Below are positions 204-51,328 of a stretch of 64,000 bases of DNA, in pieces. The DNA is taken from contig JAFRJK010000002.1 of the NCBI GenBank assembly GCA_017432305.1, forward strand, positions 1 through 64,000, written 5' to 3'. Position 1 is the first letter of the stretch. Each line of letters opens with the position of its first letter. The stretch is from Candidatus Saccharimonadota bacterium (GTDB lineage Bacteria; Patescibacteriota; Saccharimonadia; Saccharimonadales; Saccharimonadaceae). The notes beneath the pieces were generated by a model. The model was not told the origin of the DNA. It ran no database searches and saw only the letters and a program-made list of their open reading frames with translations. The position numbers were made by a program, and so were the translations under genes.

Positions 204-404
204 TACGCAACGGATAGAATACCCACGACCGCGAAATTGATTCGCATCGTAAACAATCAGACCGGTATTATTGTCCAAATTAGAGAACATTACGTATGCA
301 CCATCTTTGCCAATCGATGTATTGGAACGATAATAGGTATATTTTGACCGCTCCCAGATACTTCCGCTTGGACCATGCATCCACCCACCCCTCCAAAAAT
401 CCAA
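204..404 (-). repeat. Silent FISUMP-like cassette 1
   Basis: The head codes LDFWRGG (404 downwards) and the tail codes GYSIRCV. The variable middle includes a YYRSNTSIG stretch. There is no ribosome binding site or ATG. It is head-to-head with cassette 2. Past the tail the frame runs on into foldback element A. Confidence 0.85.
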
Positions 405-445
405 TCGGAACAGAATTACTATAATATCCTAATAATGCTCTGTAG
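401..445. repeat. Head-to-head cassette spacer (type-1/type-2)
   Basis: This asymmetric spacer separates the heads of cassettes 1 and 2. Together with the head edges it is the exact reverse complement of the spacer at 51087-51127, some 50 kb away, and nearly that of 31055-31095. Conserved non-coding sequence between hypervariable cassettes suggests a role in transcription or recombination. Confidence 0.75.
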
Positions 446-643
446 TATTTTTGGAGGGGTGGGTATTATCAGCCTAATAACGGCAACGTCGGCTCTCGCA
501 CAACTAATGGTTATGGCATCGCCGGCTTCGCCTCTGATACCTCTGGCATGGTGGCTATTGCCACTATTGTTAGAGTTGATGGTGCCTACGCCTACCCTTA
601 TGCTACCGCTTCTAGATCCCAGGGGTGGGCTATCCGTTGCGTA
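446..643 (+). repeat. Silent FISUMP-like cassette 2
   Basis: Type-2 head: a TAG stop directly precedes TATTTTTGG, coding YFWRGG. The tail GWAIRCV ends at 643, 1 nt before the stop codon of the convergent leuS gene. The middle is rich in Gly, Ala and Ser. Confidence 0.85.
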
Positions 644-8493: not shown

Positions 8494-8715
8494 TACGCAA
8501 CGAATAAACATTCCAAATCCTCTATTATGGTTAGCAGTAGGGTAGACAGCTACTTCAAGCGGTACAGTAAACGCCCAGGTTATTAGCCCGCGGCCCATAC
8601 CGACAATATTACTAGTGCTAGTCCACCAAAGACCATTAGTAAGACGACGATTAGGACTGCCAACCAAGTTATCACTTGCAACTGAACCATATCTCCCACC
8701 CCTCCAAAAATCCAA
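8494..8715 (-). repeat. Silent FISUMP-like cassette 3
   Basis: Head codes LDFWRGG, middle has NGLWWTSTS, tail codes FGMFIRCV. A small AT-rich hairpin (GTTGTA/TACAAC) lies just past the tail, followed by foldback element B. Head-to-head with cassette 4. Confidence 0.85.
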
Positions 8716-8760
8716 CGGAGCTTATTTTAATATAGGATTACTTTATTTATTAGTGTTCTA

Positions 8761-8967
8761 TTGGATTTTTGGAGGGGTGGGAGATATTCGTCTGATACTA
8801 GCCAGCCAGGAGGGCTAAAAGGTCGTATCTTAGAGGCCGCTTTCTTTACTAATCACACGACGACAAGTAATAGGGTTATGAGCGCATATATTTTTGCGGT
8901 TAGTGGTACGGGTAATATACTATACACTGATACTCGACAGGCGAATGGGTATAGTCTCCGTTGCGCA
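8761..8967 (+). repeat. Silent FISUMP-like cassette 4
   Basis: Head LDFWRGG, tail GYSLRCATD. Its tail shares the palindrome CCGTTGCGCAACGG (8958-8971) with cassette 5 on the opposite strand. Confidence 0.85.
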
Positions 8968-9171
8968 ACGGATGTAAAAACCAAAACCTCTTGAATCTGG
9001 ATCATTAGGGCCAACATATCCTACCGATATACTAGCGGGTGTACGAGTAGCTGTATTTAGATAAAAAGCAGAATTGATGCTTGAAGATACTCTAGTTCGC
9101 CAATAACCATCTTTCAAAATTCCGCGTACATTACCGTCACTACGGCTATAGTACCCACCCCTCCAAAAATA
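8962..9171 (-). repeat. Silent FISUMP-like cassette 5
   Basis: Type-2 head (TAG then YFWRGG), middle has DGYWRTRVSSS, tail FGFYIRCATE. Tail-to-tail overlap with cassette 4. Confidence 0.85.
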
Positions 9172-9293
9172 CTACAGAGCATAATTACAATGTAATACTG
9201 GAATTAATTTTGAATCGTCTAGCTTCGCTATAGACGGACCTGCGTCGCTTCTAAAAAGTAAGTAAACTTACTTTTTATCAGCTTCTTGCTCCG
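9172..9293. other. Long cassette spacer with two hairpins
   Basis: This head-to-head spacer is longer than the others. It holds a hairpin CGTCTA/TAGACG near 9219-9239 and a near-perfect palindrome AAAAAGTAAGT/ACTTACTTTTT (9253-9276) that resembles a bidirectional terminator. No gene seen. Confidence 0.5.
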
Positions 9294-9491
9294 TTGGATT
9301 TTTGGAGGGGCGGGTACTATAGCTTCAGCGGTGGTGCACAGTTTCGCACTAGTTATGGCCTTTGGTGGGGACGGAGTACGGCATCGGCTAGTCATGGGCG
9401 CGGTATCCATACGTATATCAACGGCAGTACTAGCGCCGTATATATACAAGGCGCCAACGTCATGGGTTATGGATATTTCATTCGTTGCGTA
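9294..9491 (+). repeat. Silent FISUMP-like cassette 6
   Basis: Head LDFWRGG, middle YGLWWGRST, tail GYGYFIRCV. The frame stops at 9518, just before the promoter of the next gene. Confidence 0.85.
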
Positions 9492-18333: not shown

Positions 18334-18543
18334 TACGCAACGGATGTAGAACCCAAGCGCTTTGTAGTGGCTACCAACGGTATTTACGTTAGCCTCATTA
18401 TGCCCATCAGACATATATAGAGAGGTATATAACAGAGAGGAGCTATCTGTAGAATTTGAGACTTTTCCGCGCCACCCGCCGTTCATGGTTCGATAGCTTA
18501 CCGCGCCTTGAGAGTTACGATAGTCCCCACCCCTCCAAAAATC
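18334..18543 (-). repeat. Silent FISUMP-like cassette 7
   Basis: Head codes DFWRGGDY, middle NGGWRGKVSNS, tail GFYIRCVAR. The tail ends about 50 bp upstream of the dnaE promoter and points into it. Head-to-head with cassette 8. Confidence 0.85.
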
Positions 18544-18590: not shown

Positions 18591-18797
18591 TTGGATTTTT
18601 GGAGGGGTGGGAATTATACTTCTAGTCTAGGTAGAATCGTATCGTACCAAACTCAAGGGAACTGGTGGACGAAAATAGTTCATGTAGGCGCAAATAGTGG
18701 ATATCATCTTAATTCTTGGTCGAATATTACTGATAATGGTGGCATATATCCTGCTAATACTAATCCTAGGGGGTATGGATTCTTCCTCCGTTGCGTA
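18591..18797 (+). repeat. Silent FISUMP-like cassette 8
   Basis: Head LDFWRGGNY, middle QGNWWTKIVH, tail GYGFFLRCV. The middle codes NWW with ACTGGTGG, the same octamer where cassette 23 is fused to rpsJ. Confidence 0.85.
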
Positions 18798-22984: not shown

Positions 22985-23194
22985 TACGCAACGGATACGA
23001 ATTCCGAGTCCTCTCATATTGGCAGCTGGCAACCAGATGCTACCAGTATTATTAATTACATTTGAATCGAGTAAAGTTCCAGTTAATCCAACGGACGGAT
23101 TATTCATTGCTTCGTTACCCCACCAATAGCCTGATAACAGGCGTCCAATAATAACTCCATCGCTACGGAAATACATCCCACCCCTCCAAAAATA
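22985..23194 (-). repeat. Silent FISUMP-like cassette 9
   Basis: Type-2 head YFWRGG, middle SGYWWGNEA, tail GIRIRCVLL followed by a TGA stop. An AT-rich hairpin (ATTGTTGT/ACAACAAT) sits directly on the stop. Confidence 0.85.
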
Positions 23195-23242
23195 CTACAG
23201 AGCATAATTAGTTTTACTTTATATTATAGTAATTTTGTTCCG

Positions 23243-23450
23243 ATTGGATTTTTGGAGGGGTGGGAATTATACTCGTGCCGGTGGCGGTGTTGCTAACCGA
23301 TTACTCAGCAACTATGATTGGTCTAATAACGCAAGAAGCAGCGATGACGCATATTTTATAGATGTGTTTGTAGATGTAGAAAGCGGCACTGGGAGGTTCT
23401 ATCCAATATCTAATTATCGTCGAGGTGCGGGGTATTTCATCCGTTGCGCA
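23243..23450 (+). repeat. Silent FISUMP-like cassette 10
   Basis: Head LDFWRGGNY, tail AGYFIRCAR. The tail junction with cassette 11 is CCGTTGCGCACGG (23441-23453), one base short of the usual palindrome. Confidence 0.85.
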
Positions 23451-23653
23451 CGGATAGAAAAACCAAATCGTGTTGGATGATACGTGTTCGTATATACACC
23501 GCCATTGGCGCTATTTGGATAAGCCCATGAGCCTAGTATTCGCGCCGCATCATTTCCGGTGTATTCGTTTGTGTACCAATATGCGTGGCCGGTTCGGTTG
23601 AAGACGTTTCCTTTTCCGTTAACGTTATCATAAATCCCACCCCTCCAAAAATA
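23441..23653 (-). repeat. Silent FISUMP-like cassette 11 (frameshifted tail)
   Basis: Type-2 head YFWRGG, middle HAYWYTNEY. Because of the missing base in the shared palindrome, the tail reads IRAQR instead of IRCA. Confidence 0.8.
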
Positions 23654-23699: not shown

Positions 23700-23897
23700 T
23701 TGGATTTTTGGAGGGGTGGGTGGTATATCCTCAATGGGAGTCCTAATAGCCGAACCTATGGCGGTTGGTGGCGTACGCGGCATGGGTTTACTTCTGGTAA
23801 TAGTGCGAATCTTGAAACTCGCCATTATGGTGACTTTACCTATGTATATGCGCCAGGTAGCAATCTTCGAGGGCATGGGACGCTAATCCGTTGCGTA
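23700..23897 (+). repeat. Silent FISUMP-like cassette 12
   Basis: Head LDFWRGGWY, middle YGGWWRTRHG, tail GTLIRCVAR. The frame ends in a TAA that overlaps the stop codon of the convergent FemAB gene. Confidence 0.85.
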
Positions 23898-29161: not shown

Positions 29162-29368
29162 TTGGATTTTTGGAGGGGTGGGGCATATCGTTTTGGCGGT
29201 ACACCTGTGATAACTTGGCGGGCAACAAATGGCTATTATATTATCAATCAAGCATCTTCTGATTCTCGTAATTTTCGTACAGATTTTGGGATTGGGACTA
29301 GCTCTGCTGTCGTTAGGGCTGATAGTGATAGTGCTCAAAGAGGGTTCGGAATATTTATCCGTTGCGCA
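29162..29368 (+). repeat. Silent FISUMP-like cassette 13
   Basis: Head LDFWRGG, middle NGYYIINQASS, tail GFGIFIRCATDK. Tail-to-tail with cassette 14 across an intact CCGTTGCGCAACGG (29359-29372). Confidence 0.85.
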
Positions 29369-29563
29369 ACGGATAAGTAATCCCCGCCCTCTATAAAAAG
29401 AGCTAACAGCCCATACAGTGGAACTATCACCAGCACTGAACGTCTCAAAATCACGAGCAGAGTTGGCGCTAGCGGTGAATGGTATCCACCAAAATCCGTA
29501 GACCATGCGAGCATAGACTTTACCATAATTCCAATCATATTGCCCACCCCTCCAAAAATCCAA
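29363..29563 (-). repeat. Silent FISUMP-like cassette 14
   Basis: Head LDFWRGG, middle YGFWWIPFTAS, tail GLLIRCATDK. Its head lies 8 bp past the acyltransferase stop, so it is read through by that transcript. The pre-head TACTCTCTTGG is shared with cassette 18. Confidence 0.85.
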
Positions 29564-30644: not shown

Positions 30645-30848
30645 TTGGATTTTTGGAGGGGTGGGAGATATGAAAGTAATCTTGGGGAGATTCGTCTTCG
30701 CGATTCATCTGGGTATAGTTGGACTTCATGCACAAAGCATTCAGGCAAGGCTAGTAATACAAACACTATTAGCGCCTATGAAAATACTTCTTATATTTGG
30801 CTTCCAGGTGACAATTACAGAGGGTATGGATTCCCAATTCAGTGCGTA
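30645..30848 (+). repeat. Silent FISUMP-like cassette 15
   Basis: Head LDFWRGGRY, middle SGYSWTSCTKH, tail GYGFPIQCVA, with Gln replacing the invariant Arg. Tail shared with cassette 16 in GTGCGTAGCGCAACGGAT. Confidence 0.85.
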
Positions 30849-31054
30849 GCGCAACGGATGATAAATCCAAACCCTGGTACATCGCCACCGGCTGGACGTA
30901 CGGATGCGGAACCACCAGCCCAAGAGCCACTATAATTTGCCCAAATTACTGACGTAACAGACAAGAAAGTTATTCTTATCCATAGAAATGCAAAATCATC
31001 TCTGTGGCCGATAGTTCCAGCGCCATAGTTATAGTACCCACCCCTCCAAAAATA
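30848..31054 (-). repeat. Silent FISUMP-like cassette 16
   Basis: Type-2 head YFWRGG, middle FAFLWIRITF, tail GFGFIIRCATH then stop. Head-to-head with cassette 17. Confidence 0.85.
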
Positions 31055-31095
31055 CTACAGAGCATTATTAGGGCATTATAGTAATTCTGTTCCGA

Positions 31096-31296
31096 TTGGA
31101 TTTTTGGAGGGGTGGGATGTATTCTTTTGAACGCGGTAGTGTCCAACATCGTTTAATTCTCGCTATCTGGATTCAACTAGAAGCGTCTACTGCCGATCGC
31201 GCGCGCCTCTTGAATACATACTCTTCTGATGGCAGTGGCTATGTTTGGCCATCCGGTACTGATGTCAGGGGACACGGGTTTAATATCCGTTACGCA
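31096..31296 (+). repeat. Silent FISUMP-like cassette 17
   Basis: Head LDFWRGG, tail GHGFNIRYAT, with the conserved Cys changed to Tyr by a point change in the shared palindrome. Confidence 0.85.
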
Positions 31297-31500
31297 ACGA
31301 AGACGAAATCCGAAGCCTCTGCTATTATAGGCGTCTGCTGGCCAAAATGCTCCCTTTTGACTATCGCCAACAGATGAATTCATATATAACGCATGGCTAG
31401 AATAGGATAAAACATTAGTCCATAAGCGTGCACTAGCTACCCTGGTTACAGGTATCATACCAAACGAGTCTTCATAAAGTCCACCCCTCCAAAAATCCAA
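31291..31500 (-). repeat. Silent FISUMP-like cassette 18
   Basis: Head LDFWRGG, middle SARLWTNVLSY, tail GFGFRLRCVTD. Head-to-head with cassette 19. Confidence 0.85.
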
Positions 31501-31532: not shown

Positions 31533-31742
31533 TATTTTTGGAGGGGTGGACAATATGGTGGTGAATATGGTTCTGTTGCCGTTAGAACGGCGCGTGGACA
31601 TTGGCTCCCAGGATATGCAAATGGCAATGGTGGGCACCGTTATCTTGATTCTAACTTAGTAAACGGCGATTCTACTTTAGTAGGCATGGTAAAACCCTCT
31701 GTTGATGGCGCTCGTGGATTTGGAAGGTCTATCCGTTGCGTA
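31533..31742 (+). repeat. Silent FISUMP-like cassette 19
   Basis: Type-2 head YFWRGGQY (one base differs from the consensus after GGGGTGG), tail GFGRSIRCVT then stop at 31748. Runs into the terminator shared with rpsJ. Confidence 0.85.
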
Positions 31743-31780: not shown

Positions 31781-32107
31781 TTACATCTTGATTTCTGCGT
31801 CAACACCGCTTGGAAGACTAAGGTTCTGGAGTGAATCGATTGTCTTTGGAGTTGCGTTAGAAATGTCGATAAGGCGTTTGTGAACTTTCATTTCGAAAGC
31901 TTCGCCACCAGTCTTATAGACGTGTGGGGATTTAACAACTGTAAAAGTCGAGCGCTTAGTTGGAAGAGGAACTGGACCGCTGACGGTTGCGCCGGTGCGA
32001 ATTGCTGTGTCGACGATTTGTTTTGCGCTTTGGTCAATAACGCGGTGATCGTAAGCCTTGAGGCGGATACGAATTTTAAGACCTTCAGCTTTTTTAGCTT
32101 CTGCCAT
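31781..32107 (-). CDS. rpsJ: 30S ribosomal protein S10
   Basis: 108 aa, head of the small subunit and NusE in antitermination. Motifs [39 protein letters not shown] and [12 protein letters not shown] are typical. It stands alone, unlike the usual first position in the S10 operon, with a -10 (TATAGT) about 85 nt upstream. A 135-bp copy of its 3' end lies in inverse orientation at 32868-33002. Confidence 0.97.
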
Positions 32108-32341: not shown

Positions 32342-32560
32342 TTGGATTTTTGGAGGGGTGGGTTTTATCAACGTAGTAGCGGAGGCTTTCAGGTACATCG
32401 CCGATTATTAGACGCGGATTTTTGGTATAATACTTATACTAATAACTGGTTTTTCAATACTTCAACTTTTGTTGCTTCTGGAAGTACTATCGAAAAGGGC
32501 GCTGTGTGGTTTAATGATACTGCGTCTTATAGAGGAAATGGATTTCTTGTCCGTTGCGCA
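32342..32560 (+). repeat. Silent FISUMP-like cassette 21
   Basis: Head LDFWRGG, middle ADFWYNTYTN, tail GNGFLVRCATE. Palindrome at 32551-32564 shared with cassette 22. Confidence 0.85.
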
Positions 32561-32752
32561 ACGGAGAGTTCTCCCATTACCACGTATGTAACTAGTCGAT
32601 GGATTGACCCATATGGAATCTTGGTATAAATAAGTTGCAAGATAATAGGCATTATCGCTGGAGCCGGCTCGTCTATTGTACCAGTAGCTATATAATAGGC
32701 GTGACCACAAACCTCCGCTCGGGTGATAATACCCACCCCTCCAAAAATCCAA
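32555..32752 (-). repeat. Silent FISUMP-like cassette 22
   Basis: Head LDFWRGGYY, middle YSYWYNRRAGSS with SDNAYYL typical of FISUMP domains, tail GNGRTLRCATD. Confidence 0.85.
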
Positions 32753-32800: not shown

Positions 32801-32875
32801 TATTTTTGGAGGGGTGGGAATTATGTCTTCTCGACTGGTGGAGTCTATATTCGCATAAAGAATGGAAACTGGTGG
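32801..32875 (+). repeat. Cassette 23, truncated and fused to an rpsJ fragment
   Basis: Type-2-like head LYFWRGGNY, then NGNWW, where the sequence switches to rpsJ within ACTGGTGG (32868-32875). The cassette tail is missing. Confidence 0.85.
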
Positions 32876-33002
32876 CGAAGCTTTCGAAATGAAAGTTCAC
32901 AAACGCCTTATCGACATTTCTAACGCAACTCCAAAGACAATCGATTCACTCCAGAACCTTAGTCTTCCAAGCGGTGTTGACGCAGAAATCAAGATGTAAT
33001 AA
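32868..33002 (+). pseudogene. Duplicated 3' end of rpsJ
   Basis: By eye this is base-for-base identical to the last 135 bp region of rpsJ (31778-31912, minus strand), including the stop codon. It has no start and is in inverse orientation to the true gene. The 5' edge coincides with ACTGGTGG, common to rpsJ and to cassette NWW codons. Identity implies a recent event or ongoing homogenisation. Confidence 0.9.
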
Positions 33003-33008
33003 CAGATA

Positions 33009-49995: not shown

Positions 49996-50196
49996 TACGC
50001 AACGGATATAGAACCCAAAGCCCATATCATTTCCGCCTGGCACCCATACACGGCCAGCGCCTGACCCGACGAGGATGTGTAAATTACCAGCAAGGTAATT
50101 AGAGGAAGCCAGAAGTTCCCACCAGGCACCGAATATATCACGGTTCCAAATACTTCCTTCTGATTTGTAATATTCCCCACCCCTCCAAAAATCCAA
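49996..50196 (-). repeat. Silent FISUMP-like cassette 24
   Basis: Head LDFWRGGEY, middle FGAWWELLASS, tail GFGFYIRCV. The tail continues into GCGTAAAATTGAGTTTTTG, a flank found again at 18906. Confidence 0.85.
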
Positions 50197-50239: not shown

Positions 50240-50430
50240 TATTTTTGGAGGGGTGGGTATTATGCTCGTAGTATTGGTGAGATTAGAAACCGTGGAAGTG
50301 ACGGTCATTGGTGGGCATTAAGCACTATCTCTAACCAAGGCGCAAATTTTCTCAGTTCATCTATTTCCAATAATGCCTTTATTGCTCCTCAGGATGGATA
50401 TTATAGAGGATATGGAAGATTTATCCGTGC
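50240..50430 (+). repeat. Silent FISUMP-like cassette 25 (frameshifted tail)
   Basis: Type-2 head YFWRGGYY, middle DGHWWALSTIS. The palindrome lacks one T (CCGTGCGCAACGG, 50425-50437), so the tail reads IRAQR. Confidence 0.8.
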
Positions 50431-50625
50431 GCAACGGAGCATATGCCCATATCCCCTATAATAATGTCCGTCTGTAACTCGTGCGATACTAGAGGGGGTT
50501 ATATCGGTATGAAGATAAGCCGCATAGGACGCTGATCCAGCATAATTCTTATACCAATCTCCATTAGAAAGACGATATATAACAACGCCAGATGACAAAT
50601 TATAAATCCCACCCCTCCAAAAATA
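50428..50625 (-). repeat. Silent FISUMP-like cassette 26
   Basis: Type-2-like head LYFWRGG, middle NGDWYKNYAGSAS, tail GYGHMLRCAR, then a stop a few codons later. Confidence 0.85.
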
Positions 50626-50672: not shown

Positions 50673-50885
50673 TTGGATTTTTGGAGGGGTGGGGTATATC
50701 AGAATTATCAAGGCGCTGGCAATGGAATAAAATGGCGCACTGGAAATTCCGCTTGGTGGTATCCGTCTGTGTTAGCTATATCAGATCGCGCTGCTGCTTT
50801 CTATACGGACATTCGCGACGGTGCTGGTACTGCGTTTCTACCAGGTTCGGTATCCCGAGGGTATGGAATGTCTATCCGTTGCGCA
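50673..50885 (+). repeat. Silent FISUMP-like cassette 27
   Basis: Head LDFWRGG, middle NSAWWYPSVLAIS, tail GYGMSIRCAT. Palindrome variant CCGTTGCGCAACGA at 50876-50889. Confidence 0.85.
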
Positions 50886-51086
50886 ACGAATATAGAACCC
50901 CGCACCCCTAGCATCAGAGCTTCCAGGATAAACGTAACCGTTAATAGATTGGCTTATGTGGATGGGGAAATTACTTCCAGCATTAGCTGAAGTAGCCTTA
51001 TAGGTCCAATAGATACCTAGGCTCAAGCGAGAGCTATTAAAAATTCCGCCATTATTGCGTGAATAATTCCCACCCCTCCAAAAATA
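50880..51086 (-). repeat. Silent FISUMP-like cassette 28
   Basis: Type-2 head YFWRGGNY, middle LGIYWTYKATSA, tail GAGFYIRCATD. Head-to-head with cassette 29. Confidence 0.85.
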
Positions 51087-51127
51087 CTACAGAGCATTAT
51101 TAGGATATTATAGTAATTCTGTTCCGA

Positions 51128-51328
51128 TTGGATTTTTGGAGGGGTGGGGTTATATACTATGGCACTGGAGCGATTAGTCTTCGCACCTCGGAGGCTCGTT
51201 GGTGGACACGCAAGATGATTGAAAATTGGGCTAGCTACAGCCTTGGCACATTTATTTATCAGAATAAAGGTCATGCCCATCCTGGATATATCTATTATAT
51301 ATCAAACGGGTATTCTATCCGTTACGTA
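51128..51328 (+). repeat. Silent FISUMP-like cassette 29
   Basis: Head LDFWRGG, middle EARWWTRKMI, tail GYSIRYV with Cys changed to Tyr. The tail ends 4 bp before the stop codon of the convergent obgE. Confidence 0.85.

Follow-up and report, generated by a model that had tools for sequence, protein, structure and literature searches.

Predicted silent copies of a retroelement variable region abut at palindromic tails in a Candidatus Saccharimonadota genome

Our analysis shows that the palindrome CCGTTGCGCAACGG consists of two opposed cassette tails, both IMH cores, which abut without a gap, and the sequence context indicates that these cassettes are silent copies of the variable region (VR) of a diversity-generating retroelement (DGR) and not genes. 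We propose that the cassettes probably form an archive of VR copies, which is fed by the DGR and in which each copy extends from a head to the IMH core, and that the palindrome is the junction of two such 3' ends. More tentatively, and with somewhat less than even confidence, we suggest a two-tier system, in which a reverse transcriptase (RT) would write variants, a library of more than 100 cassettes would hold them, and the 17-bp head and the palindromic tail would serve to return them; such a system would join DGR mutagenesis to a silent-cassette memory within one minimal genome and would recur independently in related Saccharibacteria.

The palindrome was studied in a 64,000-nucleotide stretch of DNA, hereafter the window, and in the 748-kb genome. 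According to the original prediction, intact copies lie at 8958, 29359 and 32551 and variants in the 30840s and at 31288 and 50876; all three intact copies proved to be exact, and the variants were located at 30844 (2 mismatches), 31287 (2) and 50876 (1). Allowing up to 3 mismatches, the window contains 14 matches, compared to 1.8 expected from dinucleotide shuffles, and none of 100 shuffles reached 14. Confinement to cassettes held genome-wide, as 12 of the 12 exact copies lie inside tail-to-tail cassette pairs, and the 14-mer was not found to be common outside cassettes; a reversed control pattern had no copy in the genome, and CCGTTGCGCAACGG was absent from 59 relatives. The notion that the palindrome reads RCAT on either strand was likewise borne out: at the three exact sites, (I/L/V)RCAT is encoded on both strands, each time in the frame of the strand's own cassette, and the RC codons of the two partners terminate on neighbouring bases, as they also do at the imperfect sites at 31287 and 50876 (Table 1). 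The stretches read contain 34 tail-to-tail pairs, of which 24 have an offset of 0, with two CGTTGC hexamers abutting gaplessly, 8 have a 13-nt form and 2 do not overlap. In the 13-nt form, found in the window at junctions 23441 and 50425, one base is deleted and one partner cassette consequently reads IRAQ. The reuse of the same register, and the recurrence of an identical one-base deletion in eight pairs that are otherwise unrelated, indicates that the junction is inherited with the scaffold and does not stem from independent insertions. The palindrome is best explained by the abutting of two VR-type tails: a few bases serve as 3' homology for both cassettes of opposite direction, and the palindrome would be a by-product of this packing.

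Table 1. Predicted silent VR cassettes, tail-to-tail junctions and recurrent head-to-head spacers in the window.
Position	Strand	Feature
207-400	-	Silent VR cassette
401-446		Head-to-head spacer, same 47-nt family as 31054-31099, inverted
447-640	+	Silent VR cassette, in-frame stop before head
8497-8711	-	Silent VR cassette, 3' half common to cassette C5:62321
8712-8764		Head-to-head spacer, identical to C7:32671 spacer
8765-8964	+	Silent VR cassette
8958-8971		Palindrome CCGTTGCGCAACGG, two tails abutting (RC codons end 8964/8965)
8965-9170	-	Silent VR cassette
9298-9488	+	Silent VR cassette
18337-18542	-	Silent VR cassette
18595-18794	+	Silent VR cassette
22988-23193	-	Silent VR cassette
23194-23247		Head-to-head spacer, identical (inverted) to C4:17628 spacer
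23248-23447	+	Silent VR cassette
23441-23453		13-nt tail-to-tail variant CCGTTGCGCACGG
23447-23652	-	Silent VR cassette, IRAQ tail
23704-23894	+	Silent VR cassette
29166-29365	+	Silent VR cassette
29359-29372		Palindrome CCGTTGCGCAACGG, perfect over 22 bp when TTAT..ATAA flanks are included (RC codons end 29365/29366)
29366-29559	-	Silent VR cassette, related to C1:77746
30649-30845	+	Silent VR cassette
30844-30857		Tail-to-tail junction, imperfect palindrome GCGTAGCGCAACGG
30851-31053	-	Silent VR cassette
31054-31099		Head-to-head spacer of a recurrent 47-nt family (other loci 91-96% identical, in either orientation)
31100-31293	+	Silent VR cassette
31287-31300		Tail-to-tail junction, imperfect palindrome CCGTTACGCAACGA (RC codons end 31293/31294)
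31294-31496	-	Silent VR cassette
31534-31739	+	Silent VR cassette, single unpaired tail
32346-32557	+	Silent VR cassette
32551-32564		Palindrome CCGTTGCGCAACGG (RC codons end 32557/32558)
32558-32748	-	Silent VR cassette
32802-32880	+	Truncated cassette fused to inverted partial copy of neighbour gene, end approximate
49999-50192	-	Silent VR cassette
50241-50431	+	Silent VR cassette, IRAQ tail
50425-50437		13-nt tail-to-tail variant CCGTGCGCAACGG
50431-50624	-	Silent VR cassette
50677-50882	+	Silent VR cassette
50876-50889		Tail-to-tail junction, imperfect palindrome CCGTTGCGCAACGA (RC codons end 50882/50883)
50883-51085	-	Silent VR cassette
51086-51131		Head-to-head spacer, same 47-nt family as 31054-31099
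51132-51325	+	Silent VR cassette

The cassettes, about 115 in total, are promoterless fragments of about 62-72 codons, which are composed of a head (ATTTTTGGAGGGGTGGG), a body and a tail (TCCGTTGCG) and span FWRGG to (I/L)RC at the protein level. Cassette heads were defined as matches to the 17-bp head with at most 2 mismatches in the stretches read, which yielded 115 cassettes, 28 of them in the window; 100 of the 115 heads are identical to the 17-mer, and a genome-wide search with the 12-mer TTTTTGGAGGGG returned 114 places. Codons and open frames were tested in the 102 complete cassettes, the remainder being truncated or located in a stretch read later. The Arg codon of the head is AGG in 102/102 and that of the tail is CGT in 100/102, compared to 42/449 and 146/449, respectively, of the Arg codons inside bodies; head and tail are conserved at the DNA level, at synonymous sites, beyond what the protein sequence requires. 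None of the 102 bodies contains a stop codon, whereas only 4.8% would be expected to be open per cassette under random substitution at the same divergence. The genome therefore holds many partial copies, in which the ends are conserved and the frames open, as is seen in silent-cassette systems, and they begin at the head instead of lying at the end of a complete gene. The open frames and conserved heads could partly reflect homogenisation instead of use.

It had been assumed that the palindrome ends two genes at once, which is not the case, as the cassettes possess neither a promoter nor an N-terminus. In 31/115 cassettes, an in-frame stop codon is located immediately 5' of the head, so that translation through the head is impossible and the sequence would only be meaningful when joined to VP inside the head. 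A TTG or ATG codon that directly precedes the head, present in 71/115 cassettes, could be taken as a sign of independent small genes with a stop region that is palindromic by chance. This is extremely improbable given these in-frame stops, the lack of any Pfam or NCBIfam match when four cassettes were analysed on their own, and the finding that the frames correspond to the C-terminal part of a longer domain, which is whole in VP.

The connection between cassettes and a DGR was made by whole-genome searches with PF09603 and PF00078. The gene of the predicted secreted surface protein (VP) is located at the end of contig C8 and encodes 522 aa up to the contig edge, with an N-terminal hydrophobic segment and the end ...NGAPLDFWRGGLYSRSNGGIWSRTVNAYWWES. 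It contains a FISUMP-like domain (TIGR02145, E 8e-9, which is below the cut-off of that family), and cassette sequence is also present inside its ORF. Contig C5 starts with the same 72 bases, continues to ...GFYIRCVARQ* and then carries, in this order, an accessory ORF, the RT (RVT_1, E 2.8e-9; IGNLTSQL and YVDDF motifs) and an inverted template repeat (TR). TR and VR differ by 17 substitutions at TR adenines and by none at other bases of the mutable part, and their 3' ends show an IMH/IMH* difference (TCCGTTGCGTAGCGCGCC versus TTCGTTGTGTGGCGAGGC). The VR-type 3' end is TCCGTTGCGTAGCGC and the TR type TTCGTTGTGTGGCGA; the cassette tail is of the VR type. An inverted repeat, GCGCCA-GTAG-TGGCGC, follows 3' of the VR, with a fold no stronger than that of shuffles of the same GC-rich stretch (z -0.9). 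This hairpin sequence is absent beside the cassettes, its sole copies being located at VR-bearing contig ends and at the DGR locus. Judged by its components (RT, accessory ORF, TR/VR and IMH/IMH*), the locus is a DGR with predicted retrohoming activity.

As the assembly is interrupted at the VR (at the start of C5, the end of C6 and both ends of C8), the DGR locus was joined by the 72-base overlap and by analogy with the relative G027, in which VP, accessory ORF, RT and TR are found in the same order on one contig and the TR/VR differences are almost all at adenines. Another full copy of the VR is probably located between C6 and C8. For the C-terminal domain of VP, AlphaFold gave a model of insufficient quality for use (mean pLDDT 41), so the assignment as a putative C-type lectin draws on the FISUMP match together with published DGR proteins; a PDB sequence search gave no match. 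Further sequences of this kind were also seen: L030:1060-1199 (C6 end) and L025:1-103 (C8 start) hold two halves of a second VR, with flanks longer than those of silent cassettes, and at L029:2447-2530, between RT and TR, the 3' end of the VR is present for a third time (IMH, hairpin and ~60 bp), without a VR body. A 944-aa open frame with three FISUMP-domain matches is located amid cassette arrays (G000:C1:95805-97670; L005, L006, L008).

The cassette tail is better explained as the 3' end, or IMH core, of a DGR variable region than as the target of a recombinase or nuclease, the function that the original prediction had considered for the palindrome. Single, non-palindromic tails occur in the same arrays, relatives possess the same kind of archive without the palindrome, and the only two Phage_integrase genes are distant from the cassettes, with the nearest (C4:2949-4085) ~13 kb away from the closest one. 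The same observations bear on a site-specific inversion as in shufflons, or on integron-like cassettes, in which a recombinase would act at the palindrome or at the inverted heads. The cassettes alternate near-strictly (40 head-to-head and 34 tail-to-tail arrangements in some 30 arrays), the heads form inverted repeats and the spacers recur in both orientations, all of which would agree with such a process. However, the arrays are dispersed across the genome with housekeeping genes between them, and inversion alone leaves the exchange of bodies unexplained; together with the distant integrase genes and the relatives that lack the palindrome, this makes the explanation highly improbable. In the window, the cassettes sit between longer ORFs. 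An integron/attC reading was given up when the cassettes were recognised as copies of the DGR VR.

The head-to-head spacers provide information on how cassette content changes. They belong to a few families, which recur at distant loci in both orientations, and 68 pairs of spacers reach an identity of 85% or more, 40 of them inverted and 28 in the same orientation. Bodies beside matching spacers have a median identity of 0.59, compared to 0.60 for random cassettes, and bodies beside the common 13-nt tail variant are equally unrelated. Matching spacers next to unrelated bodies indicate that the content between head and tail was swapped or rewritten while the scaffold was kept. An exchange of content between conserved ends is thus supported, although rewriting in place would give the same pattern. 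The idea of a crossover site stands in the sense that, in this comparison of scaffolds and bodies, the palindrome is one of the two boundaries of exchanged or rewritten content; its proposed use by a dedicated recombinase or nuclease is not supported.

Some arrays show additional features. Head-to-head spacers of ~130 nt (9171-9297, C5:61735 and C1:104746) all contain GTCTAGCTTCGCTATAGACGGACCTGCGTCGC..., and the contig ends L014 (C2:42-235) and L019 (C5:62771-63005) share one body, with 1 mismatch in 163 nt, between different heads and spacers. The 3' end of an S10-like ribosomal-protein gene is repeated in inverted orientation (31781-31905; about 32866-33005), bracketing ~1.1 kb, and the inverted 3' end is fused to the truncated cassette (head 32803), which might be due to an inversion or an assembly mixture.

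With regard to the origin of the bodies, cassette C7:66328 is a copy of the TR, in which 19/52 A but only 9/143 C, G and T positions are changed, and its scaffold has a spacer 97% identical to one on C4 and the 13-nt tail variant. A recent TR-derived body in an old scaffold shows that DGR-derived sequence entered an existing slot between head and tail, and a flow from the DGR to the cassettes is supported. Only 2/102 cassettes still resemble the present TR as A-mutated copies, the other bodies being saturated, which suggests that most bodies are old or derived from other templates; for old bodies, DNA exchange and cDNA rewriting appear indistinguishable in the present sequences.

These data also bear on the idea that the cassettes are true VR targets of an active multi-target DGR, with the palindrome acting as IMH and stem-loop (stem TCCGTT, 4-nt loop) in both directions. 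The palindrome DNA can fold into a hairpin with a 6-9 bp stem and a 4-nt loop, and phage targets have a 7-10 bp stem with a 4-nt loop 4-34 bp after the VR (PMC3240598). However, such a hairpin in the palindrome would overlap the IMH and not follow it, it is missing from the cassettes of the relative G011, and the two TR-like cassettes differ in their tails, which is paired in one and single in the other. As nearly all bodies are saturated at non-A positions, which argues against rewriting from the present TR, we consider this reading very unlikely. Owing to its potential to fold, the palindrome may still function as a makeshift IMH plus stem-loop, but nothing in this analysis favours such a role.

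A different view would be that the cassettes are a write-only sink, that is, relics or off-target products of DGR retrohoming into sites with the same head and IMH core, which never return to the expressed gene. Head and tail come near to the requirements of a DGR target, 5' identity over 8 bp or more together with an IMH (PMC3240598), a downstream stem-loop is important but not strictly required (PMC12875486), and T. denticola retains leftover targets after loss of its DGR (PMC4891356). A-mutated TR copies are also found, two here and most of the cassettes tested in G011. On the other hand, dead relics should decay, whereas all 102 strongly diverged bodies are open; moreover, the synonymous sites of head and tail are conserved and the cassettes lack the VR hairpin. 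We regard a mere sink as rather unlikely and favour an archive that is also read.

Relatives of the RT were retrieved with an RT alignment as query; a search of contigs with the single RT matched nothing. Almost all belong to Candidatus Saccharibacteria, many from the ruminant gut, including Ca. Nanosyncoccus alces. Of 80 named loci that carry a related RT, 58 contain a detectable A-biased TR/VR pair; since most mismatches in these 58 fall on TR adenines, retrohoming appears to have been the latest event at them. Archives with lineage-specific heads and tails are present in G022 (44 matches), G030 (82) and G011 (26), the counts being lower bounds since the profile was built from the cassettes of this genome. 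In G011, the RT contig of which is that of Ca. Saccharibacteria UBA1788, most cassettes tested are A-mutated TR copies (for example, A 28/59 and other bases 1/155) with a 5' flank of the VR type that is absent from the TR; they end at the stop codon, without downstream sequence common to TR and VR, and have no palindrome-type hairpin. The 82 matches in G030 (L052-L061) follow one NNC-type variability pattern. No RVT_1 protein was found in G030 (97% completeness), which is therefore an archive without a detectable writer. RTs of the same family with 48-51% identity are also encoded on L144, L146, L153, L154 and L155, labelled as Nomurabacteria, Clostridia, Bifidobacteriaceae and Deltaproteobacteria; these might be misbinned Saccharibacteria or a result of transfer.

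We propose that the DGR writes new VR variants of one surface protein and that VR- or cDNA-derived sequence could be copied into cassette slots via the short common head and tail. By the same route, stored bodies could be returned to the expressed VR, thereby switching the exposed C-terminal domain. The flow from cassettes to the expressed VR is inferred from the open frames and conserved ends; the present VR of this genome is TR-derived, and a cassette body was seen in no expressed VR. The common tail homology of ~9-14 bp is short for RecA recombination. DGR homing completes with 8 bp of 5' identity (PMC3240598), and RecA makes no contribution to a reconstituted DGR (PMC12875486). With such a short head and tail, cDNA integration or another annealing-type process would fit better than classical RecA recombination.

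DGRs are viewed as overwriting systems, in which each retrohoming event erases the previous variant. More than 100 stored, exchangeable variants would provide a DGR with a memory, and such an archive would explain how a 750-kb episymbiont genome could maintain a repertoire for binding different hosts. VR surveys restricted to the neighbourhood of the RT miss most of the variable sequence, and Roux et al. noted that their own search would not see remote targets (PMC8144416). The re-expression of stored variants now becomes a direct, checkable question. Both kinds of system, DGRs and silent cassettes, have been described before; a DGR that keeps an archive of silent cassettes, or one with ~115 dispersed gene-less VR cassettes, was not found in the openly accessible papers searched.

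Shufflons consist of C-terminal coding segments in opposite orientations, which are bounded by short inverted repeats. The cassettes are similar in that they are C-terminal coding segments in opposite orientations with short inverted repeats, but housekeeping genes lie between their dispersed arrays, and no recombinase gene was found next to them. The locus itself resembles BPP-1-type DGRs and those of CPR (Patescibacteria), with an RT, an accessory ORF, an adenine-specific TR/VR pair, IMH/IMH*, a hairpin after the VR and a C-terminal variable domain ending in RC. For cellular DGRs, few targets have been reported, such as the 2-7 whole genes per genome in T. denticola (PMC4891356), unlike the ~115 dispersed gene-less VR fragments described here. 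Variable-domain copies dispersed away from the RT are also known as the remote variable proteins or CLec paralogs of cyanobacteria (PMC7517822); these are, however, complete proteins, whereas the cassettes are head-to-tail fragments without a start or promoter in alternating arrays. The vls silent cassettes are ~90% identical to the expressed gene (PMC11499132), unlike most bodies here, which are near saturation and share only common ends of 17 and ~9-14 bp. As in Borrelia vlsE, Neisseria pilE/pilS and Treponema tprK, the latter with 53 donor cassettes (PMC10063172), one expression locus is accompanied by many silent partial copies with conserved ends and varying content; in contrast to vlsE, pilE and tprK, the source of diversity here would be a reverse transcriptase, and we infer a conversion of its stored products into the expressed gene.
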